Assembly: GCF_028713855.1 (NCBI RefSeq)
Contig: NZ_JAQTNN010000005.1
Coordinates: 62,001-126,000, forward strand
Source: Sulfuricurvum sp.
GTDB taxonomy: Bacteria; Campylobacterota; Campylobacteria; Campylobacterales; Sulfurimonadaceae
Length of the DNA stretch: 64,000 bases
Reading direction: 5' to 3'
Positions 39,954-59,080 of this stretch are shown here, in pieces. Made by a program: the position numbers and the translations under genes. Positions within the stretch are counted from its first letter, which is position 1. The number at the start of each line of letters is the position of its first letter. The notes below the pieces were generated by a model that was given only the letters and a program-made list of their open reading frames with translations, made no database searches and was not told where the DNA came from.

Positions 39954-41051
39954 CTATTTTACGGAGCTTTGAGCGGTTTTGTTATTTGACTGTGACGAAA
40001 ATGAGCCAAACAGGTCGAAATTCTTATCCAGTTTCAGCAATGCTGAATCGATTACAGAGGCATAGTGTGCCAGTGTCGTTTGTACATTTGCGTGACCAAG
40101 CATCCCGGATAGTTCGCTGATGCTTACAATGCTTTCACGGAGCATCGTGGTGGCGAACGTGTGACGGCAAGCGTATAGCCGTCGGTATCGGATACCCGTT
40201 TTTTCTAACAACGGGTGCCAATGCTTCGGCATCTTTCTCGCATCATCATACTCACCGAATAAGAAGATATTTCCACTGTTAAGCTTCAGCACTTCATCGA
40301 TCACGAACTGAGGGCATGGAATCTTACGGATAGAGCTTTTCGTTTTCGGGTGTCGAATCTTTTTATCGGTTCTGACCCGTTTTATATCGATCCATCCATC
40401 TTTCAGATCACCGGCTTGCAACCCGAAGATTTCTTCCGGTCGCATACCCGTATTGAATGCCAATAGCAGATATGGCCGCATTATACCCTCGGCGTTTTCA
40501 ATGAGCGCTCGAGCTTCCTCTTTTGTGAAGTAGTCGATCTCTTTTTTCTGTTCAGGTTTTAAACGGATGTTTAGTGCCGGATTCGCATCGATCACCCGAT
40601 CATCTATCCCCATTTCAAATATCTCATTGAAGAGTGTTTTGAGCGGAGCTTTTGATCGGTTCATAATCGGAACGGATGCTAGGTACTCTTTAACCTCGAA
40701 CCGTGTTATCGTGTCGATATCTCTATAGCCGAATACTTTGTTCGCGATATCCCACTGCGTTTTTTTGTTTCGGTAGGATGAGTTTTCGGATTTACGTTTT
40801 AAGAAAATCTCATAATAATGTCCGAATGTTTTCGGCTTCTTTTTATGGATTTCACCTGTAGCTATCATTGACATTAGTTTCGGTATAATCGTAGTCTCAC
40901 AAAGTTTTCGGTTCTCTTTGGTATCATCGAGTCCCGTTGCTTTTCTCTTACGTTCACCGTCCACCATATAGTCAATATACAGCTTTTTACCTCTGGCATA
41001 TACTTTTGCCATACCTTTGCCCTTTCGGACAGAAACACCATGAAGCGACAT
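39954..41051 (-). CDS. int: Phage integrase, tyrosine recombinase
   Basis: 365 residues. N-terminal arm-binding and core-binding regions (about 15-160), then the catalytic domain with FNTGMRPEEIFGL (Arg), a beta hairpin Lys in HPKTKSSIRKIP, ACRHTFATTML (HxxR), LGHANVQTTLAHYA (His and the nucleophile Tyr). It integrates and excises the prophage. ATG is preceded by AAGGAGTG. It lies at the left edge of the element, transcribed toward the host border. Confidence 0.95.
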   Translation of the reverse strand: MSLHGVSVRKGKGMAKVYARGKKLYIDYMVDGERKRKATGLDDTKENRKLCETTIIPKLMSMIATGEIHKKKPKTFGHYYEIFLKRKSENSSYRNKKTQWDIANKVFGYRDIDTITRFEVKEYLASVPIMNRSKAPLKTLFNEIFEMGIDDRVIDANPALNIRLKPEQKKEIDYFTKEEARALIENAEGIMRPYLLLAFNTGMRPEEIFGLQAGDLKDGWIDIKRVRTDKKIRHPKTKSSIRKIPCPQFVIDEVLKLNSGNIFLFGEYDDARKMPKHWHPLLEKTGIRYRRLYACRHTFATTMLRESIVSISELSGMLGHANVQTTLAHYASVIDSALLKLDKNFDLFGSFSSQSNNKTAQSSVK

Positions 41052-42319: not shown

Positions 42320-42858
42320 AGTTGATCCTTTAATTCTTCTTTCAAGAACTCAGAAAAAGGAACCCAAATATCTTCCCAAAAATCAGTAACATAATTTTTC
42401 ATTTTTGTATTTTCAGGGATTGATTCACAATCATATAAAATACAGTCAAGCTCATCCGCATTAATACATTGACTAAAATACAATTCGTTACTGTTTTGGC
42501 AATAATTAAATATAGATAAAACTTTATCCCAAGCGTCTCTAGCTTGACGTTTAGTGATATTATATTCTTTTCTATATTCAATAATTTTTTCTTTAAATGA
42601 TACGAGCCTAGCATCAAAGTCAGGCTCATACATATTGTCAGCACCACCCATTAATTTTTTCATCGTGTAGTGCATATCAGTTGTTGTTAAAAACTTTTTA
42701 GGGTTCATCCCACAATAACCCCAATAGTGATTAAACTCACCGTAGTCGCTTGAGATCATTACATTAACGCTCTCTTCTCCACAATCAAGGTTTATTTTAG
42801 CCCATAGGCATTTTTCACCTCTTAGGCTATATGTTTCGGTTAAAGTTTTTTGTATCAT
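42316..42858 (-). CDS. Phage hypothetical protein
   Basis: 180 residues, soluble, acidic and rich in aromatic residues (YGEFNHYWGYCGMNPKKFL). No recognised domain. Start and stop overlap the neighbouring genes by 4 nt. The composition is more AT-rich than the host genes around it, in line with phage accessory DNA. Confidence 0.7.
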   Translation of the reverse strand: MIQKTLTETYSLRGEKCLWAKINLDCGEESVNVMISSDYGEFNHYWGYCGMNPKKFLTTTDMHYTMKKLMGGADNMYEPDFDARLVSFKEKIIEYRKEYNITKRQARDAWDKVLSIFNYCQNSNELYFSQCINADELDCILYDCESIPENTKMKNYVTDFWEDIWVPFSEFLKEELKDQL

Positions 42859-42962
42859 CCCGCTCTCCTCATTTCATTTAAAATTCTCTGCGCTTCCAAA
42901 GCATCGAAGTAATGCTCAGGCTTTATAAAATCACTTGGGCTAATTTCTTCCGCGCCTTGCAT
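42855..42962 (-). CDS. Very small coupled phage ORF (35 residues)
   Basis: Reads MQGAEEISPSDFIKPEHYF and continues to a TGA that overlaps the ATG at 42858, the same ATGA junction as its neighbours. It overlaps the 3' end of the preceding gene by 40 nt in another frame. Only the downstream part of a longer open frame (to 43250) looks like protein, which supports this short start. No strong RBS. Confidence 0.45.
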   Translation of the reverse strand: MQGAEEISPSDFIKPEHYFDALEAQRILNEMRRAG

Positions 42963-43252
42963 TTTTGGGAATTCTCGGATCGTCTCGCTTTGATCTGTTC
43001 CGTTGTCCACCCTTTGCGGGATATGCGAGGCGCATACTTCTTTTTTGGCTTCGGTACCATTTTCCCGACGTTGGCAATATGGTTTTCCAAAGTAGCACTC
43101 ATCGGGCGGTTTCTGTTTTTCGGGGTGATGATGAGCGGTTCGCGGTAGGCTTCGTCTTTGGGTGCGTATTCTCTCCGCCATATCTCTTCGGGGAGTGGAA
43201 CGGCCTTGAGATATTCCATTTCTGCACAGTAGTCTTCGTAGGTTTGCCACAT
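42923..43252 (-). CDS. Phage hypothetical protein
   Basis: 109 residues. The N-terminal half is acidic/aromatic (MWQTYEDYCAEMEYLKAVP) and the C-terminal half very basic (KPKKKYAPRISRKGW, SQKCKARKKLAQ), suggesting nucleic-acid contact. The basic half around GWTTEQIKARRSEN may be a short homing-type or HTH-like helix. Its ATG overlaps the previous stop (TAATG). Family unknown. Confidence 0.65.
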   Translation of the reverse strand: MWQTYEDYCAEMEYLKAVPLPEEIWRREYAPKDEAYREPLIITPKNRNRPMSATLENHIANVGKMVPKPKKKYAPRISRKGWTTEQIKARRSENSQKCKARKKLAQVIL

Positions 43253-43620: not shown

Positions 43621-44544
43621 TTATTTGCTTAAGATACTCCATGCCAACGGTACCATTCTTCCAACCTGTCCGTTTCCAATGGCTTTAATCCTGTGTGGCC
43701 TATTGGCCACGCCATGAGCCACTCTTCCCAGTTTGGGTTCAATAGGCCACCGACCCGATTCCCCTCCATAGTAGTTATGAAATTGCAGAGTCGAATATGT
43801 TGACCCTTTTCCACTCTCTCCTGGACTGTCATATTGTTCCATTTGAAACCGTCCGAAGCCGTTGGAGTTGGATAGAAGTTCATCACCTGCCCCACTATCC
43901 CGTTGCGTTTGTCCGCCGACACTTTTCCCCGCTTCTCTGCGTCGTTCGCTTTTGGAGTATAGAAAAACTCTTGGTGTGATCGATCCTCGTTTAATTCGAT
44001 TTCGTCGAATAGACTTTCGGATTGCTTTGTGTCTTGGGTGTTCAGTGCATTGGCGTGTCGCGACGATCCATATCCGGTCACGCTTGTGTGGAGCGTCGGC
44101 ATTGTGCGCTCCGATAACTCCCCATTTACAGTCATACCCCAACGCGGTAAGGTCTCCAATAACTCGATCTCCTCCCCGAGAAGTGAGAAGCGGAGAATTT
44201 TCCACGAGGACGCGTGGGGGTCGTACTTCGCCGATGATCCGCGCCATTTCTCTCCAAAGCCCCGACCGCGCTCCGTCCAATCCGCATCCGCTTCCGGCAC
44301 TGCTGATGTCTTGACACGGAAACCCGCCAGATATGACATCAACAATTCCTCGCCACGGGTAGCCGTCAAAACTTGACACGTCAGACCATATCGGGAAAGG
44401 TTCGAAGGATCCGTCATTTTGTCGTTGTGCCAAAACTTGTGCGGCGTAGGAATCACGCTCAACGGCGCACACGGTTCGCCATCCGAGAAGTTTACCGCCG
44501 AGTATTCCTCCACCAGCATCTGCGAAAAGAGCCAACTCATTCAC
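43621..44544 (-). CDS. Phage DNA cytosine-5 methyltransferase
   Basis: 307 residues, GTG start overlapping the previous gene. Motif I LALFADAGGGILGG (a D where G is usual), motif IV GGFPCQDIS with the catalytic Cys (about residue 77), VENS for motif VI, HKRDRIWIVA for motif VIII and RIKAIGNGQV for motif X. The region between VIII and X (about 170-265) is low in recognisable structure. It methylates cytosine in host or phage DNA, probably against restriction; no cognate endonuclease is adjacent. Nearly all of it is also open in a second frame (separate entry). Confidence 0.9.
   Translation of the reverse strand: MNELALFADAGGGILGGKLLGWRTVCAVERDSYAAQVLAQRQNDGSFEPFPIWSDVSSFDGYPWRGIVDVISGGFPCQDISSAGSGCGLDGARSGLWREMARIIGEVRPPRVLVENSPLLTSRGGDRVIGDLTALGYDCKWGVIGAHNADAPHKRDRIWIVATRQCTEHPRHKAIRKSIRRNRIKRGSITPRVFLYSKSERRREAGKSVGGQTQRDSGAGDELLSNSNGFGRFQMEQYDSPGESGKGSTYSTLQFHNYYGGESGRWPIEPKLGRVAHGVANRPHRIKAIGNGQVGRMVPLAWSILSK
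43629..44339 (-). CDS. Overprinted phage protein inside the methyltransferase gene
   Basis: 236 residues in the -1/+1-shifted frame of the same strand; the frame is open up to an ATG at 44540. The internal ATG at 44339 is chosen because GAGGAA lies 7-12 nt upstream and because MSYLAGFRVKTSAV matches the N-terminus I recall for a phage protein family often found beside or overlapping such methyltransferases. Further hallmarks: AKYDPHASSW (37-46), LPRWGMTVNGEL (64-75), YPTPTASDG (156-164) and LNPNWEEWLMAWPIGHTGLK (200-219). Function unknown. Both frames look protein-like, so this is dual coding rather than a shadow. Confidence 0.7.
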   Translation of the reverse strand: MSYLAGFRVKTSAVPEADADWTERGRGFGEKWRGSSAKYDPHASSWKILRFSLLGEEIELLETLPRWGMTVNGELSERTMPTLHTSVTGYGSSRHANALNTQDTKQSESLFDEIELNEDRSHQEFFYTPKANDAEKRGKVSADKRNGIVGQVMNFYPTPTASDGFKWNNMTVQERVEKGQHIRLCNFITTMEGNRVGGLLNPNWEEWLMAWPIGHTGLKPLETDRLEEWYRWHGVS

Positions 44545-44920
44545 GTATCCTCCTATTGGTAGAGCTTTTCATAAACGATTGAAAAAGCGGGTTATCTTCT
44601 ATACTATCAAAGCCATATGGACATGGCATCTGATAGTATTGTGTAGCCTCCCCAATTTTTACGTTTTGCAGGTTCCATCTTCGGCAAATTTCTTCACCTA
44701 GAAACTTAGCACTCTCGAAAGTTGCATCCGCATCAATAGCAAGATTTGAATTGTAAAGTTTGATTCGTGCAAAACCTAAATTCATTCCACCGATACAATC
44801 ACTTTTAAAACAAAGCTCAACCGACCCATATCGCTCATTAGACAGACATAACAATTCTAAATTTTCTACGGTGTCGGCGTCAGATGTGGTGATCCCATCG
44901 ATTCGTAATGTCAGTTGCAT
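44537..44920 (-). CDS. Phage hypothetical protein
   Basis: 127 residues, soluble alpha/beta type with several Cys; contains GEEICRRWNLQNVKIGEA and IDADATFESAKF segments. No family recognised. It ends 8 nt inside the methyltransferase start, and its own ATG overlaps the end of the small gene upstream. Confidence 0.65.
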   Translation of the reverse strand: MQLTLRIDGITTSDADTVENLELLCLSNERYGSVELCFKSDCIGGMNLGFARIKLYNSNLAIDADATFESAKFLGEEICRRWNLQNVKIGEATQYYQMPCPYGFDSIEDNPLFQSFMKSSTNRRIRE

Positions 44921-45942: not shown

Positions 45943-46031
45943 AGTTTCTCCTTTGGTAGTTCTTCAATAATGCGTATCGCCCACCATAATGGCAGACCGT
46001 TGAGGGATGCTAAAATGAGCCTATACTTCAT
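45936..46031 (-). CDS. Very small phage ORF (31 residues)
   Basis: MKYRLILASLNGLPLWWAIR and a short charged tail; possibly membrane associated. ATG shares its first base with the parB TGA, and its stop overlaps the next gene. Its end contains the AAAGGAG ribosome-binding site of that gene, so it may serve mainly to couple translation. Confidence 0.45.
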   Translation of the reverse strand: MKYRLILASLNGLPLWWAIRIIEELPKEKLC

Positions 46032-46834
46032 CAAATCTCCTCGATGGTGATTCTGTACTGTTTCTCAGGGTCTAATGTGGAAATGATCTTGTCAAAGTTG
46101 ATAGACTCAACCGAATCTCCACCCTTTGCGAAAATAGTCGAAACGTGTTTCATTTTCCCGCGGGAAATTTTTTCCGCTTTCGGCTTTGCCGCTTCCTTGA
46201 AATCATCGCGTGTGATTTCGCCTGCTTTGTATCGCTGATAGATTTCACGCTGTTTTTCGGGTTGTTTTATTCGTGCGAGTTCATCGAGTACCGACATTCC
46301 GTATTCTCGTCTTTCACTCTTCACTTCAGCAATGATAGTTGGGTCAAGTTTGTTCACGACGCTGAATGCCTTGGATATATATGAGAGCGGTTTGGCAATC
46401 ACGGATGCGAGATCCTGCTTTTGATCATACGCTCCCGACTCCCATAGCCGAACTATCGCCATTGCTACTTCTAAATCGGTCAGGTCATCACGTTGGATAT
46501 TTTCAATCAGCGCCATTTCATCGATAACCGTATTCTCATACGATGATACTATTGCCCGGATCGTCAATGCTCCGATGATTTTATGAGCTTCCCATCTGCG
46601 CTGACCTGCTATGATCATGTATCTATTCTCTCTGCGTACTACGCTGATAGGTTGGAGCAGGCCTTTTTCTTTGATAGATTCAGCCAGTTCTCCCAATGAT
46701 ACATGGTCGAAGTATTTGCGGGGTTGGTCGGGGTTTGGGTATATCTTCGATATCTCTATCTCCATAAGATCAGTGATACCGTTCGTGCGAGTCGGGGTTT
46801 TGGCTTTAGCATCTAGTAGGGCTGATAAGTTCAT
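46031..46834 (-). CDS. parB: ParB-like partition protein
   Basis: 267 residues from the ATG at 46834. ParB/Srx N-domain with ISKIYPNPDQPRK, the nucleotide-binding AGQRRWEAHK (77-84; canonical GERR) and ENIQRDDLT (111-119). A central HTH follows (about 135-170: ASVIAKPLSYISKAFS) and a C-terminal tail that likely dimerises. ParB binds parS and uses CTP to slide along DNA. It overlaps parA by 29 nt. A parS-like palindrome lies inside its codons at 46154. Confidence 0.9.
   Translation of the reverse strand: MNLSALLDAKAKTPTRTNGITDLMEIEISKIYPNPDQPRKYFDHVSLGELAESIKEKGLLQPISVVRRENRYMIIAGQRRWEAHKIIGALTIRAIVSSYENTVIDEMALIENIQRDDLTDLEVAMAIVRLWESGAYDQKQDLASVIAKPLSYISKAFSVVNKLDPTIIAEVKSERREYGMSVLDELARIKQPEKQREIYQRYKAGEITRDDFKEAAKPKAEKISRGKMKHVSTIFAKGGDSVESINFDKIISTLDPEKQYRITIEEI
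46154..46167. promoter_or_regulatory. parS-like palindrome 1
   Basis: A perfect 14-bp palindrome TTTCCCGCGGGAAA inside the parB coding region. It is one of three copies near parAB; candidate ParB binding site. Confidence 0.55.
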
Positions 46835-47414
46835 ATTTAAGTCCTGATATTTCAGATCGTGCGGTACCGTCAATAGCACCGTGATATACACTCTTTCCAT
46901 CACCCATTGTCGTTCGGTAGATTTTACGGCTTCGGATTATGTTTTTCAGTATGCGGAACCCAGTTCCATATACGGCTTGCTCAATATCTTTGAAGTTACG
47001 AGCGAGTGGGTGGACGTTGTTGAGTACCATACATACCTCTGCATGGCTTCCGATCTCGCTCAAGATATCTTTGAACGTCTCGAAGCCTATCACCTCAGTA
47101 ACGCTATCGCTGATCGGTATCACTACCAAGTCGCTGTACTCGATAGCAGTTCGATTGATCGCCGCATCAAACCCACCTACATCAATAATGACGATTTGAG
47201 TGCTTGGTATGTTTTGGAGTATGGTGATCAACTCCTCAGACGTTTGAGGCTGTATAACGTTCAGCGGTTCACCACCCATAAGGTTTAGATATTTGATGGT
47301 TTGCTGAAAGTCGAGATCGATTACAGTAGTGCCGTGACCGATCGAGTGAGCGAGATGCCAAGCGAGTGTTGATTTTCCGACACCGCCTTTGGTGTGTGCT
47401 AGGGTGAGTATCAT
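46806..47414 (-). CDS. parA: ParA-like partition ATPase
   Basis: 202 residues from the ATG at 47414. Deviant Walker A TKGGVGKST (8-16), Walker A' VIDLDFQQT, Walker B IVIIDVGG. It is a short ParA/MinD-type ATPase without an N-terminal DNA-binding domain, as in type Ib partition systems. It overlaps parB downstream and the DUF551-like gene upstream (ATGA). Together with ParB it suggests active segregation of a circular form. Confidence 0.9.
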   Translation of the reverse strand: MILTLAHTKGGVGKSTLAWHLAHSIGHGTTVIDLDFQQTIKYLNLMGGEPLNVIQPQTSEELITILQNIPSTQIVIIDVGGFDAAINRTAIEYSDLVVIPISDSVTEVIGFETFKDILSEIGSHAEVCMVLNNVHPLARNFKDIEQAVYGTGFRILKNIIRSRKIYRTTMGDGKSVYHGAIDGTARSEISGLKYELISPTRC

Positions 47415-47869
47415 TTGGAACTCTTTGGCACTAGGATATGCATCCACAGTTTTGCTTTTTTAGTAGCCATCCAATGAATATCTTCAACACTATTCCATTC
47501 ATACCATCCCTCAGGCAAATAGTATTCATCCCTTTCTTCATTGTAATCGCAATCACCATCAAAAGTACCGTCACATTCCATATGAAATTCAGGGTAATAC
47601 ACGGCTCTTATTCCATCATGAAACTCGAATACTTTTTCTCCAAGCTCAACATCATTTTCCATATAAGCAAATACAATTTGACCCGCTTTTGGCATTTCAT
47701 CGTTGGTGTTGATCCATTCACAGCTTTTAGGGGCTTCGAGTTCGGCGATTGCTTCATCGATTTGATCCCATGTTTGTAGATCATCTTCGTAATTAGCAAG
47801 GCTTTCTTTGCTTGCACCTAAATGTGTTTGAAACGCTTTTAATAATGCTATCGCTTTCAACTGTTCCAT
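47411..47869 (-). CDS. Phage DUF551-like protein
   Basis: 152 residues. After a helical N-terminus (about 1-55), the segment CEWINTNDEMPKAGQIVFAY is the start of a DUF551-type domain, common in phages and of unknown function. The C-terminus has many acidic and aromatic residues. The start at 47869 is chosen because the upstream frame overlaps the palindrome at 47893 and a hairpin. It probably begins the parAB transcription unit. Confidence 0.7.
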   Translation of the reverse strand: MEQLKAIALLKAFQTHLGASKESLANYEDDLQTWDQIDEAIAELEAPKSCEWINTNDEMPKAGQIVFAYMENDVELGEKVFEFHDGIRAVYYPEFHMECDGTFDGDCDYNEERDEYYLPEGWYEWNSVEDIHWMATKKAKLWMHILVPKSSK

Positions 47870-50102: not shown

Positions 50103-50765
50103 TTATTTTTCTGCTAATGAGCCTAACGATCTAACATGCTTATAGAGTTTTCCTAAAATATGAAGCTCAATATTATTCAATATTGTGTTTTCGGTTGGAT
50201 ATTCTTTGTTATCACTTATGATATCAACCCCTTTTGAACCTCTGAAATGCAATCTTTTTATCTGAATAGATCCATCTTTGCTAATTAGATAAATACTATC
50301 AACCATTTCAACTGATCTGCTATTAACCATATCTACGATAACCCAGTCCTCCGGTCTAATTGTAGGCTCCATCGAATCCCCAACAACTTGAAATATTGAC
50401 AAGTTTTTAGGGTTAATACCGTTTAGAAATTTAGTCCATATTGGAACTCTTTCTTCAGTAATATACTCAGGGAGTAGCCCCTCAGCACCTGCCCCCGCCG
50501 CAATATTTACTACTGGTATAAAAGTGACTCCGTTAGATGGATCGATCCGCTTTTCATCTTGGCTTCCGATAAGATAGGCAACATCAACATTTAAAATATA
50601 AGCAATTTTTGATAATACAGAAATTGGAATATCATTTCGTATATCATCATTTTCACTTAACCATTTAGCAACCGCACTTTGATTTTCGCCTAATCTCTTT
50701 ACCATGTCTTTTTGTTTAATTCCGAGAATGTTCATCTCGGTTCTAATACGCATAACAATATCCAT
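50103..50765 (-). CDS. CI-type phage repressor with LexA/S24 peptidase domain
   Basis: 220 residues. N-terminal HTH (about 10-65: IKQKDMVKRLGENQSAVAKWL in sequence), a linker with an AAGAGAEG likely cleavage segment (89-96), and a C-terminal S24 domain with VVGDSMEPTI (Ser131 nucleophile) and SIQIKRL (Lys170). RecA-stimulated self-cleavage would induce the phage. It should bind the ATTCCAnAATGGAAT operators on both sides and repress both early operons. Confidence 0.93.
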   Translation of the reverse strand: MDIVMRIRTEMNILGIKQKDMVKRLGENQSAVAKWLSENDDIRNDIPISVLSKIAYILNVDVAYLIGSQDEKRIDPSNGVTFIPVVNIAAGAGAEGLLPEYITEERVPIWTKFLNGINPKNLSIFQVVGDSMEPTIRPEDWVIVDMVNSRSVEMVDSIYLISKDGSIQIKRLHFRGSKGVDIISDNKEYPTENTILNNIELHILGKLYKHVRSLGSLAEK

Positions 50766-52211: not shown

Positions 52212-52439
52212 ATGGCACCTATGACAAAGCGTACCGGAATGATCGAAACGGTTTTGGATTGGCTCAAGAGCGGTCGTGAGATCACGGCACTCGAAGCGGC
52301 AAAAATGTGGAATGAGCTAAACCTGCGTAATAAGATAAGTATTCTCAGATCTGATGGATGGCCTATCCATAGTAGAGAAGAGAAAGCACCGCATGGCGGT
52401 CTATATAAAGTCTATTTTCTCGATGGCGAGAAGAACTAA
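52212..52439 (+). CDS. Phage HTH domain protein
   Basis: 75 residues: MIETVLDWLKSGREITALEA and a winged-helix wing region HGGLYKVYFLDGE, the small HTH type often encoded just before phage replication genes. Stop codon (TAATG) overlaps the next start. Confidence 0.7.
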   Translation: MAPMTKRTGMIETVLDWLKSGREITALEAAKMWNELNLRNKISILRSDGWPIHSREEKAPHGGLYKVYFLDGEKN

Positions 52440-53671
52440 TGAACGAAGAGGAACTTTATAATCTCGCTTTTGAGCGATCGGTTCTTTCATCTATCATCTT
52501 TTACCCTGCATCGTTTAAAGATATCAGCCTCACCGTAAATGATTTTTATCTATCAGCTCATCAAAAAATATATGAGGCTATGGTTTCACTCGATAAAGAA
52601 GATCAGCCGATCGATGAAGAGTTCATCCGATCCTACCTCGTGCCTCGCGGTAGTTTTGATGAGCGTGTGATGGTTGAGATACTCACAGCAAATCCGATAT
52701 CAAATGTCAGAATGTATGTTGCTCGGATACGAGAGCTCGCACAAATGCGTGCACTTGTCCTGCTTGGGGTTCATCTCAAAAGTCAAGAATTCGTTGAAGT
52801 ATCTGCTGCACTTAATTATGCGGAAACGTCCCTCAAATCTATTATTGATATGCATATCGGTGGAGGTATTGGTTGCGTATCGATTACCGATATACCTGAC
52901 GGTCAAACAGAATTTATCCTGAAAAATTGGCTCCCATTCCCACGCGGTACCGTATCGATGATCGCTGCACCTGGAGGAACCGGTAAGAGTTGGACGGCTC
53001 CTCAGATCGCATTTCGATATTGTGATGAGTCGCAATATTCTAAAGTAGCTCTTTGGCTCTCAGAAGATCCAATGCACGAAACCAAAAATCGCGCTAAAGC
53101 TGTGGCTCTTGATGTTATGAGTACTACATTCTCACAATATAAAAACGTCCATCTCATCACCGAACGCCCTCAGCCTATAATCAATAACGGAAAGTATGAC
53201 CCGCAACGATTCTACCGTCTGCGTAAATCGCTCAAGGGATATGATCTCGTCATCTTAGACCCTATGCGCGCCTTTTTCGGAGGTGATGAGAACTCAAATA
53301 GCGACGCTAACATTTTTATGGCTCCTTTCCAAGATTGGGCAGCGGAAGAGAACATTACGATCATATTTCTCCATCATAGTAAAAAGAATAACGATGAGGG
53401 TATGCACTCTAAAGCCCGTGGTGCGAGTGCGTTTGTAGATGCGTGTCGTACCGTGTATGAGATCGGAAAGGTATACAAAAACCAACGTATCGGTGAACTT
53501 GATATGGACAATCAGCATATGAGAGAGTTTATCCTATCAAAGGATAACTTCGGTGTAGTTCGTATGCTTGGAGGGTATAAGGTGCAAAAACACATTACTC
53601 CCAAAAGCAGTGCACGTGCTACAGCGGTACAGATTGACTATGAGATGAAAGCTGAGATGCCTGTAATATGA
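52439..53671 (+). CDS. Replicative helicase, DnaB N-domain plus RepA-like ATPase
   Basis: 410 residues. The first about 135 residues resemble the DnaB N-terminal domain (FERSVLSSIIFYPASFKDIS), and the rest is a RepA/AAA_25-type RecA-fold ATPase: Walker A APGGTGKS (177-184), Walker B DLVILDPM, FLHHSKKNN. It is a phage replication initiator/helicase. The following gene overlaps its stop by 4 nt. Confidence 0.85.
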   Translation: MNEEELYNLAFERSVLSSIIFYPASFKDISLTVNDFYLSAHQKIYEAMVSLDKEDQPIDEEFIRSYLVPRGSFDERVMVEILTANPISNVRMYVARIRELAQMRALVLLGVHLKSQEFVEVSAALNYAETSLKSIIDMHIGGGIGCVSITDIPDGQTEFILKNWLPFPRGTVSMIAAPGGTGKSWTAPQIAFRYCDESQYSKVALWLSEDPMHETKNRAKAVALDVMSTTFSQYKNVHLITERPQPIINNGKYDPQRFYRLRKSLKGYDLVILDPMRAFFGGDENSNSDANIFMAPFQDWAAEENITIIFLHHSKKNNDEGMHSKARGASAFVDACRTVYEIGKVYKNQRIGELDMDNQHMREFILSKDNFGVVRMLGGYKVQKHITPKSSARATAVQIDYEMKAEMPVI

Positions 53672-55282: not shown

Positions 55283-55876
55283 TTGGAAACTGAAACTATT
55301 GATTGGGACGAAATCAAAAAAGACTTTTTAGGTGGAAAATTTAGGTCTGTAAACGCACTCGCTTCACACTATAAAGTTAGCCGACCCGGAATAATGAAAA
55401 AATCCAAAAAAGAGGAATGGGGCGACTTCGTGCCTCTCTCGAAAAATATGCCAGTTTCAACAATTGATAAAAGTGTAACCAACCCTTACATCGACATTTT
55501 AGGACCGATAGCTCTTAGAAAAATTGAACAATTAAAACAAGAACTAGGGAATCACTACAGCAATGTTGATGAACCAATGATTGTGTGTTATGCAAAAACA
55601 TATGAAAGATGGCTCGCTTTAGAAATAAAAATGATGGATCAAGAGGAAGTTTTGGAGAGTGAAAAAACAGGATCAAAATATATTAATCCTCTTTACAATG
55701 TTATTCAAATGACAATAAAAACTCTTACGCTACTGAGTAGCCAGCTTGGGGTTTCAATGCCAAGTAGACACAAAATGAATATTAAAATTGGAGAGCACGA
55801 GGGTCAACTAGTAATTACATTTGCAAGTCAGGTTAGTGGAGAAGTTGAAATGATGAGTGAAACTATTGATGTCTAA
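55283..55876 (+). CDS. terS: Terminase small subunit
   Basis: 197 residues from a TTG preceded by AAGGGGG. The N-terminal HTH (KFRSVNALASHYKVSRPGI) binds the packaging site and the helical remainder forms the oligomer. It overlaps terL. Position before the large subunit and after HNH supports the call; direct similarity to named TerS proteins is weak. Confidence 0.8.
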   Translation: METETIDWDEIKKDFLGGKFRSVNALASHYKVSRPGIMKKSKKEEWGDFVPLSKNMPVSTIDKSVTNPYIDILGPIALRKIEQLKQELGNHYSNVDEPMIVCYAKTYERWLALEIKMMDQEEVLESEKTGSKYINPLYNVIQMTIKTLTLLSSQLGVSMPSRHKMNIKIGEHEGQLVITFASQVSGEVEMMSETIDV

Positions 55877-57533
55877 GCCATACTACGAAAAAACTTTTGA
55901 TCGACATAAAAAAGATTTAAAAGATGTAGAGACTGGAATTAGAGATGACATAAGATTTAATAAAAAGCTTGGGCTATCATATGCGGCAATAATAAATCAA
56001 CTCCACCATTTCGAGGGGGAACTCGCAGGGCAAAAAATCGTTTTAGAGGATTGGCAAGTTAGAGCGTTAGCAATCTGTTTTGGTTGGCAGCGTAAGCGGT
56101 TGGGGTCTGATGGTAAACCGATGTTGCGAGACGGTAAGCCGGTATGGGTTCGTCGGTTTAATACTGCTCTTTGGTTCCTTTCACGAAAAAACGGAAAATC
56201 TATCTTAGCATCAGGGGTAGCACTTGCAGAATCTATCTTAAGTGCAGAAAAAGGGAATCAAATCGTCACATTCGCAACCAAACGCGATCAGGCAAAAATC
56301 GTCTGGAGTGGATGTGAGAAGATGATAGGATATAACAAATTCTTTAGTGATAATTCAAGCATTGCCTATTCTACTATAACCGTACAACAAACCGATACGA
56401 CAATACGTCCGCTTGGGCGTGACAGCAAAACAGAGGACGGGCTAAATATCGGGTTTGGGGTAGGGGACGAGATCCACGCTCATCCTGATCGCTCACTCAT
56501 TGAAGTAGTCCAATCGTCTCAGGGGGCGAGGGTTCAGCCGATGATGTTCTATATCACCACCGCAGGGTTCAACCTAGCGTCACCCGGATACGATGAATAT
56601 GAGTACGCCAAAAAGGTAATGGACGGCGTGATCGAGGATGATGGGTATTTTGCGTTTATCGCGGAGCTCGATAAAGATGATGATCCGTTCGATGAGTCGG
56701 TTTGGTACAAAGCAAACCCGAATCTCGGAATATCAAAGACGTATGATCACATGAGGAATATGGCAAACAGTGCCAAAGAGCGACCGAGTGCGCTAAACAA
56801 CTTCCTCGTCAAAGAGTTGAACCGATGGGTCAACGCGGTCGAGAACTTCATCCCGTTCGCCAAATGGAAAGAGTGTGCCGCACCGGATACCGATGTGAGC
56901 GAAGCATACGGGATCCTTTTGGGAGTTGACCTATCCCGAACGGACGATTTCACCGCAAAAGCAAAGACCTATCTCCTCCCGAATGGCAAAAAACACATAA
57001 AAACGCACTTTTATATCCCTGCTGACACCGTAAAAGAGCGTGAAAGAGAGCTGAGAGCACCGCTGAGTACGTGGATTTTGCAAGGATATATCACCGCAAC
57101 ACCCGGCAATACTATCGATTTGGAGTACATCGAGCGCGATATTATCAATGATATTGAACAATATGGAGTTAATGAAATATGTTATGACCCCTATCGTGCG
57201 GCTACTTTGGTCTCAAATATCGAAAAAAATACGGGTTTTGAGGGGTGTGTGCAGATTCGGCAGGGTTTTTTGACCATATCGGAGCCTACCTCGAACTTCA
57301 AAGACGATATCAAAAAGGGGACGGTGACTCACGATGGAAATCCAGTGATGAACTGGATGGTATCGAATCTCACCGTCCTCACTGATGCGAGCGGAAACAT
57401 CAAGCCCGACAAATCGCACCAAACCCGTAAAATAGACGGATGTGCGGCCGTGATCAACACGTATGCCCGATCGATAACGTTCGAGCCTCCAGTAGTGAGT
57501 GTGTATGAAGAGAGAGGGCTTAGAAGCTTATAG
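55869..57533 (+). CDS. terL: Terminase large subunit
   Basis: 554 residues from MSKPYYEKTF. N-terminal ATPase with Walker A SRKNGKS (105-111), a Walker B-like VGDEIHAH, then the RNase H-like nuclease domain with GVDLSRTDDFTA and a late DGCAAVINTYARS segment. It packages the genome and cuts concatemers (HK97/P27 type). It is followed directly by the repeated hairpin element at 57532. Confidence 0.93.
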   Translation: MSKPYYEKTFDRHKKDLKDVETGIRDDIRFNKKLGLSYAAIINQLHHFEGELAGQKIVLEDWQVRALAICFGWQRKRLGSDGKPMLRDGKPVWVRRFNTALWFLSRKNGKSILASGVALAESILSAEKGNQIVTFATKRDQAKIVWSGCEKMIGYNKFFSDNSSIAYSTITVQQTDTTIRPLGRDSKTEDGLNIGFGVGDEIHAHPDRSLIEVVQSSQGARVQPMMFYITTAGFNLASPGYDEYEYAKKVMDGVIEDDGYFAFIAELDKDDDPFDESVWYKANPNLGISKTYDHMRNMANSAKERPSALNNFLVKELNRWVNAVENFIPFAKWKECAAPDTDVSEAYGILLGVDLSRTDDFTAKAKTYLLPNGKKHIKTHFYIPADTVKERERELRAPLSTWILQGYITATPGNTIDLEYIERDIINDIEQYGVNEICYDPYRAATLVSNIEKNTGFEGCVQIRQGFLTISEPTSNFKDDIKKGTVTHDGNPVMNWMVSNLTVLTDASGNIKPDKSHQTRKIDGCAAVINTYARSITFEPPVVSVYEERGLRSL

Positions 57534-57647: not shown

Positions 57648-57854
57648 ATGAGCCCAACGGTCAAAGCTGTCCTTTCCTATCATCTTCTCCTTATCGTCCT
57701 TATGGGCGTGCTCTCTTCGGGGGTATATATCCTCCCTTTTGATGAATGTGAAAAAATAGCCCGTGCCGTCTTTGGTTTGTCCGTCGTAGTAATAATCGTT
57801 ATGAGTATGGTCGCTCTGCATAAAGCGATCAGTGTCAAAGGCGATCAGCCATGA
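57648..57854 (+). CDS. Small two-helix membrane protein
   Basis: 68 residues from MSPTVKAVLSYHLLLIVLMG, two hydrophobic helices with a short loop containing Cys. Between terL and portal, a place where small membrane proteins are sometimes found. The upstream frame start (57570) overlaps the repeat element and is rejected. Its stop overlaps the portal start. Confidence 0.6.
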   Translation: MSPTVKAVLSYHLLLIVLMGVLSSGVYILPFDECEKIARAVFGLSVVVIIVMSMVALHKAISVKGDQP

Positions 57855-59080
57855 TTGATTACAACAATTTTATGTCCAACACACAACACGTCGGAGATTC
57901 AAGCGGGTGGCTAACGCTTAAAAATTTCGGAGGGTTTATCGCTAATTCAGGGGTGAATGTCACTCCCGATCTTGCTATGCAACACACAGCGGTTTATGCC
58001 TGTGTTCAGGTACTAGCTGATTCACTGGCAATGCTTCCGCTTGATCTTTACCGCCGTACTAAAAAAAATGGGAAACAGTACAAAGAAAAAGCAACGGACC
58101 ATCGCCTATATAGCATTTTGCACGATACACCAAACCCTGAGACAACATCATTTGCATGGAGACAATCTATGATGTGTATGTTAGGGCTTAGAGGAAACCA
58201 CTACGCTCAAATCATTCGTGATGGAGCAGGGAGAGTAATCGGTATTTATCAATTGCTATCTGATCGAATGGAAGTACGCCGTCGGATACCAAGTGGAAAG
58301 CTTGCGTATTTATATACTCTATTTGATGGGAGTGTCGCCGCGTTGGAACCTGAGGATGTTCTTCATATCCAAGGGCTTACCCTTGATGGTATCAATGGGT
58401 TAAACCCAATTGCCTATAACCGCCATACCATCGGTGCGAGTATGGCGATGGAAGAGTTCGGGTCTACGTTGTTTAAAAATGGGGCAACCCCTAGCGGTGT
58501 AGTATCCGGAGAGGGCGTTAAGTCGATGAGTGATACAGCTTTTGAACGTTTCAAAGAGAGTTTTAAAGCAAATTTTCAAGGCTTAATGAACGCAGGAAAA
58601 CCGCTGATTCTCGAAGATGGTTTTAAATTTACACCGATCACGATCAACAATAAAGACGGTCAATATTTGGAGAGCCGAAAGTTTACTAAATCAGAGATTG
58701 CGTCCATCTATCGAGTACCGCTGCACATGATTAATGACCTCGACAAAGCGACATTTTCAAACATCGAACATCAATCCCTCGAATTTGTCATTCACACCAT
58801 TATGCCTTGGGCGGTTCGTATTGAGCAAAGTCTCAATAAAACACTGCTTTCTGACTCAGAGCGCGGGGAATACTACATTAAATTCAACATATCAGCACTG
58901 TTGCGCGGAGATATGAAAACACGATATGAAGCCTATGGAATGGCGATAAAAGACGGTTGGATGAATCGAAACGAACCGCGTGACCTCGAAGATATGAACC
59001 CTGTTGATGGATTAGATGAATATTTATACCCACTCAATATGGCTCCCGCATCTGAAACCAACAAAAAGGAGAATTTATGA
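57851..59080 (+). CDS. Phage portal protein, HK97 family
   Basis: 409 residues, with TPDLAMQHTAVYACVQVLAD and LPLDLYRRT near the N-terminus, HIQGLTLDGINGL and IASIYRVPLHMINDL in the middle. It forms the dodecameric portal through which DNA passes. The ATG overlaps the stop of the small membrane protein gene. Confidence 0.94.
   Translation: MIDYNNFMSNTQHVGDSSGWLTLKNFGGFIANSGVNVTPDLAMQHTAVYACVQVLADSLAMLPLDLYRRTKKNGKQYKEKATDHRLYSILHDTPNPETTSFAWRQSMMCMLGLRGNHYAQIIRDGAGRVIGIYQLLSDRMEVRRRIPSGKLAYLYTLFDGSVAALEPEDVLHIQGLTLDGINGLNPIAYNRHTIGASMAMEEFGSTLFKNGATPSGVVSGEGVKSMSDTAFERFKESFKANFQGLMNAGKPLILEDGFKFTPITINNKDGQYLESRKFTKSEIASIYRVPLHMINDLDKATFSNIEHQSLEFVIHTIMPWAVRIEQSLNKTLLSDSERGEYYIKFNISALLRGDMKTRYEAYGMAIKDGWMNRNEPRDLEDMNPVDGLDEYLYPLNMAPASETNKKENL

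Follow-up and report, generated by a model that had tools for sequence, protein, structure and literature searches.

C5-cytosine methyltransferases made of two polypeptides have been described before. M.EcoHK31I, an alpha/beta C5-methyltransferase for YGGCCR (Lee, Kam and Shaw 1995, as summarised in PMC3404938), carries motifs I-VIII and X on its larger polypeptide and motif IX on its smaller one (PMC3404938), and its beta gene reportedly also lies inside the alpha gene in another frame. M.AquI, for CYCGRG, is a further two-polypeptide C5-methyltransferase (PMC3404938). A search of the open-access literature, which left subscription papers outside its scope, revealed no description of a phage pair such as the one presented here.

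Here, we have analysed a locus within a stretch of 64,000 nucleotides of Sulfuricurvum sp. DNA, the whole of which is called the window. Two frames of the same (minus) strand, named M and S, are each open for more than 300 codons (Table 1). S is shifted by +1 with respect to M, starts 4 nt inside it and stops 8 nt ahead of the M stop; an S codon takes its first two bases from positions 2 and 3 of one M codon and its last base from position 1 of the following one. An earlier note, made from the sequence alone, had claimed two same-strand ORFs at these coordinates, had quoted the strings AKYDPHASSW, LPRWGMTVNGEL, YPTPTASDG and LNPNWEEWLMAWPIGHTGLK from the second, and had placed GGFPCQDIS of one frame opposite AGFRVKTSAV of the other, all of which held. 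The single GGAGG core could possibly serve both starts alike. In relatives with a recognised Shine-Dalgarno core, the distance to the M start is typically 4-5 nt and hence 8-9 nt to the S start; in 14 loci, no core was recognised by a simple scan.

Table 1. Coordinates and coding features of the M/S locus in the window
Feature	Position	Strand	Remarks
M frame	43621..44544	-	307 aa, GTG start; putative catalytic subunit of a C5-cytosine methyltransferase; motifs I-VIII and X
S frame	43629..44540	-	303 aa, ATG start; proposed target-recognition and motif IX subunit
Shine-Dalgarno core GGAGG	44549..44553	-	4 nt before the M GTG, 8 nt before the S ATG
Motif I in M, LALFADAGGG	44506..44535	-	Alignment to M.HhaI and conservation among relatives
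Motif IV in M, GGFPCQDIS	44302..44328	-	Contains the catalytic Cys; S reads AGFRVKTSAV there
S block KYDPHASSWK...LPRWGMTVNGEL	44115..44228	-	Opposite M motifs VI-VIII; partly dual-constrained
Motif VIII in M, HKRDRIW	44068..44088	-	M frames of L167 and L179 end just past here
Post-motif VIII region, M codons 165-265	43750..44049	-	S constrained (PTPxASD repeats); M sequence-neutral yet open
Motif IX equivalent in S, LLNPNWEEWLMAWPIGHT	43692..43745	-	Profile match to single-ORF phage methyltransferase C-termini; near-invariant in 48 relatives
Motif X in M, RIKAIGNGQV	43663..43692	-	Invariant G290, N291, G292, Q293 and V294; confident C-terminal helix in the M model

The locus is set in a prophage, with an integrase (39954-41051), a repressor (50103-50765), a helicase (52439-53671), a terminase (55857-57533) and a portal protein (57851-59080). 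S was found in only one of 61 genomes sampled from the host family, namely that of the window itself, which fits the expectation for a mobile gene. No restriction enzyme was seen near M/S among the neighbours scanned, which comprised only part of the ORFs. Two other overlaps were observed in the window. Just downstream of the methyltransferase, two overlapping same-strand ORFs of 131 and 109 aa (42855-43250 and 42923-43252, minus strand) both lack a PHROG match, so that the coding member remains undetermined. In the early region of the prophage (46031-47447, minus strand), a ParB-like and a ParA-like gene overlap by about 98 nt.

For an assessment of S, 80 viral loci (L001-L080) were chosen via the M protein alone, without regard to S, and are therefore a fair sample for S, though one biased toward close relatives of the window M. 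Stops were counted in 76 sequences including the window, after exclusion of L006 and L015 (M frame interrupted) and of L004, L030 and L058 (M start outside the fetched DNA). As a null model, synonymous codons were shuffled within each gene, keeping the M protein and its codon usage. The window gene alone displayed no S-frame stop, compared with a mean of 7.0 and a minimum of 3 in 200 shuffles, and across the 76 sequences none was observed against 380 expected, which bears out the statement of the earlier note that the second frame is not random-looking. Among 48 representatives with less than 80% nucleotide identity to one another, S stops were absent from each of nine regions (about 252 expected overall). 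The third frame of these representatives showed no deficit (877 stops observed, about 752 expected), and the three antisense frames had stop numbers at expectation. Conversely, the M frame had no stop in codons 165-265, where 186 were expected when S codons were shuffled.

The S start codon, 4 nt after that of M, is kept in 48/48 representatives (ATG in 45, GTG in 3), even in those with an M start moved upstream. The Asn at M residue 2 is encoded by AAT in 45/45 cases, compared with 268/593 for Asn codons generally. The ATG at 44339, preceded by GAGGAA and put forward by the earlier note as the start of a 236-residue product, does exist in the window; it was dropped as a general S start, since relatives mostly have Thr there (consensus GEELLTxYL). 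The product is thus corrected to 303 residues from the conserved ATG at 44540-44538.

Substitutions were analysed in 83 pairs of sequences 1-22% apart, the changes being sorted by their effect in both frames. The constraint values are summed pairwise counts and not tree-based, and the pairs are non-independent. Within M codons 1-120, M is strongly constrained (0.08-0.26) and S only weakly (0.55-1.4); S residues 1-67, with values of 0.6-1.4, may possibly have little function. Codons 120-145 show dual constraint, with 0.24 for M and 0.24 for S. In codons 165-265 the situation is reversed, M being neutral (NN/SN 0.94) and S constrained (NN/NS 0.26), and the divergence at M positions 1, 2 and 3 of 0.33, 0.13 and 0.14 is the signature of S coding. 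Finally, codons 265-295 are under strong constraint in both frames (0.08 and 0.10). In codons 165-265 the sequence of M is thus free but its frame is kept open, because only by reading on through this stretch can M arrive at motif X.

Dual coding means that both frames are open and under purifying selection beyond the demands of the other frame, and this criterion is met. Dual coding at 43621-44544 is real, and the open frames under selection as well as their complementary constraint are shown by sequence. This supports the claim of the earlier note of true dual coding, by the avoidance of stops in S and by the complementary constraint. Three outcomes had been named there that would refute it, and all three failed: stops of the second frame in relatives are absent; the substitutions are not explained by M alone, M being neutral and S constrained in codons 165-265; and relatives of the second frame occur without full overlap, namely Jamun gp40 as a separate ORF, Lilbooboo gp33, and the single-ORF ChadMasterC gp4, Aggie gp53 and IrishSherpFalk gp71.

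A referee might object that the open S frame is merely a by-product of the codon usage or composition of M, without any product. A reason for caution is provided by Streptococcus phage Javan565 (L089, 2297-3004), whose classical HhaI-like methyltransferase has a +1 frame open for much of its length, with a WGMMRNG-like string that is a by-product of motifs VII-VIII; S is therefore not to be judged by resemblance alone. Some of what looks S-like opposite motifs VII-VIII is seen in this frame as well, so the resemblance is in part forced by M. However, the by-product explanation is refuted by the stop counts in shuffles that keep both the M protein and its codon usage, and it is contradicted by the neutrality of M and constraint of S in codons 165-265 and by the occurrence of S as a separate ORF (Jamun gp40). 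We regard it as all but excluded.

M matches PF00145 with an E-value of 1.3e-29, limited to its N-terminal half (residues 4-172), and phrog_363 along its length (E 1.9e-55). The C5-methyltransferase motifs I, IV (PCQ), VI and VIII are present in order, and G73, G74, F75, P76, C77, E115, N116, R155 and R157 are invariant in the 48 relatives. Motif X also lies inside the catalytic chain, its GNGQV being invariant in M with a constraint of 0.08. An AlphaFold model of M revealed a confident catalytic fold and final helix with residues 181-289 disordered, and Foldseek gave M.HaeIII and M.HhaI as its best matches over about 170 residues. The criterion of a recognition region and motif IX within the M chain is not met, codons 165-265 being neutral and disordered in the model. 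Because of this, and with the motif IX equivalent in S, M is classified as the catalytic part of a PF00145-type enzyme and not as a complete one.

S matches phrog_1008 (E 7.5e-19) and smaller PHROGs, and phrog_1008 was matched by S of all 48/48 relatives, so the phage family invoked in the earlier note exists; its placement "near" methyltransferases needs correction, as in most cases S is found within the methyltransferase gene or straddling it and not beside it. No Pfam or NCBIfam family matched S, and its profile found no matches in PDB or Pfam. AlphaFold provided only a poor model of S by itself (pLDDT 52.9), and a recognition fold is consequently not shown. Such a model could be expected if S folds only together with M, a possibility for which it is by itself no evidence. 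PHROG 363 (M) and PHROG 1008 (S) both carry the label DNA methyltransferase; in these entries and in the depositor annotations, we found no mention of a subunit pair, dual constraint or function.

Further insight into S came from single-ORF enzymes of actinophages. ChadMasterC gp4, Aggie gp53, IrishSherpFalk gp71 and Fitzgerald gp4 combine motifs I-VIII, PTPxxxD repeats, FxEWMMxxPxGxV and motif X, here in the form GNGV, in one ORF. Of these, only ChadMasterC and Aggie were scanned, and each matched phrog_363 as well as phrog_1008. The S profile aligned with the C-terminal family of single-ORF enzymes with an hhalign E-value of 1.1e-13, and the S tail alone with the C-termini of single-ORF phage methyltransferases at 4.5e-9. 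The C-terminal half of S is thus homologous to the VIII-X segment of these enzymes, the homology to their middle and C-terminus being shown by sequence. FxEWMMxxPxGxV precedes GN by about 20 residues, at the place taken by RxLTPRECxRLQGFPD in classical enzymes, and the C-terminal consensus of S, LNPxWVEWLMGWPxGW, is found at the expected place of motif IX. A profile comparison of S with classical motif IX was not significant (E 0.39), and the motif IX equivalent is accordingly identified by position and pattern only. The PTPxASD-repeat part of S is proposed as the target-recognition part.

Alternatively, the methyltransferase could be complete in itself and S, overprinted on it, could act separately as a regulator or accessory protein, for instance as a partner that binds DNA, an inhibitor or a protein directed against restriction. 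Accessory roles are known for many overprinted viral proteins, and S does carry an extra conserved block, KYDPxxSSWK...TWPRWGM, that is impossible in frame for single-ORF enzymes. Against this, the C-terminal half of S is homologous to part of the chain of single-ORF methyltransferases, and the corresponding part of M is neutral, so that M on its own is left without a conserved recognition part. We consider an accessory role unlikely. The suggestion of the earlier note of an overlooked methyltransferase partner is supported, though the function of S itself had not been identified there.

The relatives display a series of gene arrangements. Besides the one-ORF form of the four actinophage enzymes, there is a form with separate ORFs (Jamun gp39/gp40), followed by partial overlaps of 32 nt in Lilbooboo (gp32/gp33), 77 nt in Vagabond (gp6/gp5) and 179 nt in Artemis (gp90/gp89), in all of which the second ORF holds motif X, by a nested internal gene in Shelly (g55/g56) and PhiXhv-28, and by full coextension with motif X in M in the window and its relatives. 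These graded overlaps are shown by sequence; the direction of change along them is inferred, with no tree behind it. Depositors have treated such loci differently. In Pseudomonas phage phPA-G (L086, 2794-3522), S alone was annotated, as a hypothetical protein; in Stenotrophomonas phage SOVA965 (L087, 2713-3213), S alone was annotated as a DNA-cytosine methyltransferase and M was left out; and g56 of Paenibacillus phage Shelly bears the remark "g55 internal gene". Arthrobacter phage Jamun (L095, 1017-4140) has another annotated DNA methyltransferase, gp44, after the split gp39/gp40. The methyltransferase gene of Gordonia phage Ailee, annotated as two joined pieces, harbours an HNH endonuclease gene (L096, 1097-1495); this is an insertion of another kind, which may be related to the ShiLan case (PMC11855218).

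In 80 loci of bacterial genomes found through S, M was present at the +1 offset in 80/80; both frames were open in 72 of them, and the other eight had stops in M. In L167 (about codons 850-1235) and L179 (about codons 825-1195), M ends just after motif VIII with many stops beyond, and S is intact. Either the read-through and motif X of M are dispensable there, or M is decaying. These two loci, together with the neutrality of M codons 165-265, favour the view that the M read-through is itself a by-product, with only S and the N-terminal catalytic part mattering and the extension to motif X being a relic. Yet M is held open in this region (0 stops, 186 expected) and its motif X codons are strongly constrained (0.08), which makes a relic very unlikely.

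It could also be argued that a single polypeptide is made by programmed frameshifting, with translation leaving M for S once motif VIII has been read and returning to M ahead of motif X. The resulting order of M (I-VIII), S (recognition, IX) and M (X) is exactly that of the single-ORF relatives. However, such a mechanism would not need S to be open upstream of the switch, yet it has no stops there; nor would it need M to be open in codons 165-265, yet none of the 186 expected stops occurs; nor would it need the S start codon to be conserved at its distance of 4 nt from that of M. In addition, actinophage relatives have separate ORFs with their own starts. We thus judge frameshifting very unlikely.

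Our preferred reading is that the locus most likely encodes a two-subunit DNA C5-cytosine methyltransferase, with M as the catalytic subunit and S contributing recognition and motif IX. M would provide the catalytic domain, that is motifs I-VIII with the catalytic Cys, followed by a neutral pass-through and then motif X. S would supply what M lacks, the VIII-X segment, comprising the part for target recognition as well as the motif IX equivalent, and would also bear an overprinted N-terminal extension. Both would be translated from GTG 44544 and ATG 44540 behind one Shine-Dalgarno sequence and would assemble as one enzyme methylating prophage DNA, its most likely role being to guard this DNA against restriction. 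Phage methyltransferases are known to protect from restriction, which is the basis for the role inferred here. As to the origin, a frame change downstream of motif VIII would probably have broken up a single-chain methyltransferase; each frame would then have extended across the territory of the other, and in a later step motif X would have come to be read in the M frame. The translation of both frames, the assembly of a heterodimer, methylation, the biological role and the evolutionary order are all inferred, with no expression, complex or methylation data at hand.

A bolder reading, which we also hold to be probable, is that phage and prophage C5-methyltransferases with the specificity subunit written over the full catalytic subunit form a class that is widespread and for the most part unannotated and, taken jointly with this, that the class is likely to have arisen stepwise from a single-chain enzyme by frame change and reciprocal extension, with intermediates still living. 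If so, the birth of a two-frame gene could be traced step by step. Apart from small viruses, it is rare for two full-length frames of about 300 codons to share one strand with selection measurable in each; in M/S, the role of the second product can be tested, and the one-ORF, adjacent and partial-overlap relatives offer a rare route for studying the origin of overlapping genes. As annotation takes one frame or the other, many phage methyltransferases may have been described without their specificity subunit, and cloning of M without S would be predicted to yield an enzyme lacking activity.

Among the known systems, M.EcoHK31I is the nearest precedent, being made of two polypeptides as is proposed for M/S. 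A comparison of N15 gene 58 DNA with E. coli genomes gave no near match, so no EcoHK31I relative was reached. The layout of M (I-VIII and X) matches the large subunit of M.EcoHK31I, and S would correspond to the small one if its motif IX equivalent, assigned by position and single-ORF homology but without a significant match to the classical profile (E 0.39), is indeed motif IX. In M.EcoHK31I, however, the recognition domain is assigned to the larger subunit (PMC3404938), whereas in M/S the constraint there falls on S and M is neutral; moreover, M.EcoHK31I belongs to a restriction-modification system, while M/S is a prophage gene with no restriction partner identified among the neighbours scanned. 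Like the proposed M/S enzyme, M.AquI is cut in two past motif VIII, one polypeptide being catalytic and the other serving recognition, but its small subunit holds motifs IX and X, and with motif X in M the AquI-type criterion is not met in the window. That layout is met in Artemis gp89, Lilbooboo gp33 and Jamun gp40. The single-ORF ChadMasterC gp4, Aggie gp53 and IrishSherpFalk gp71, in turn, unite the M motifs, S-like PTP repeats and EWMMxxPxG in one chain and differ from M/S in having one frame and no overlap.
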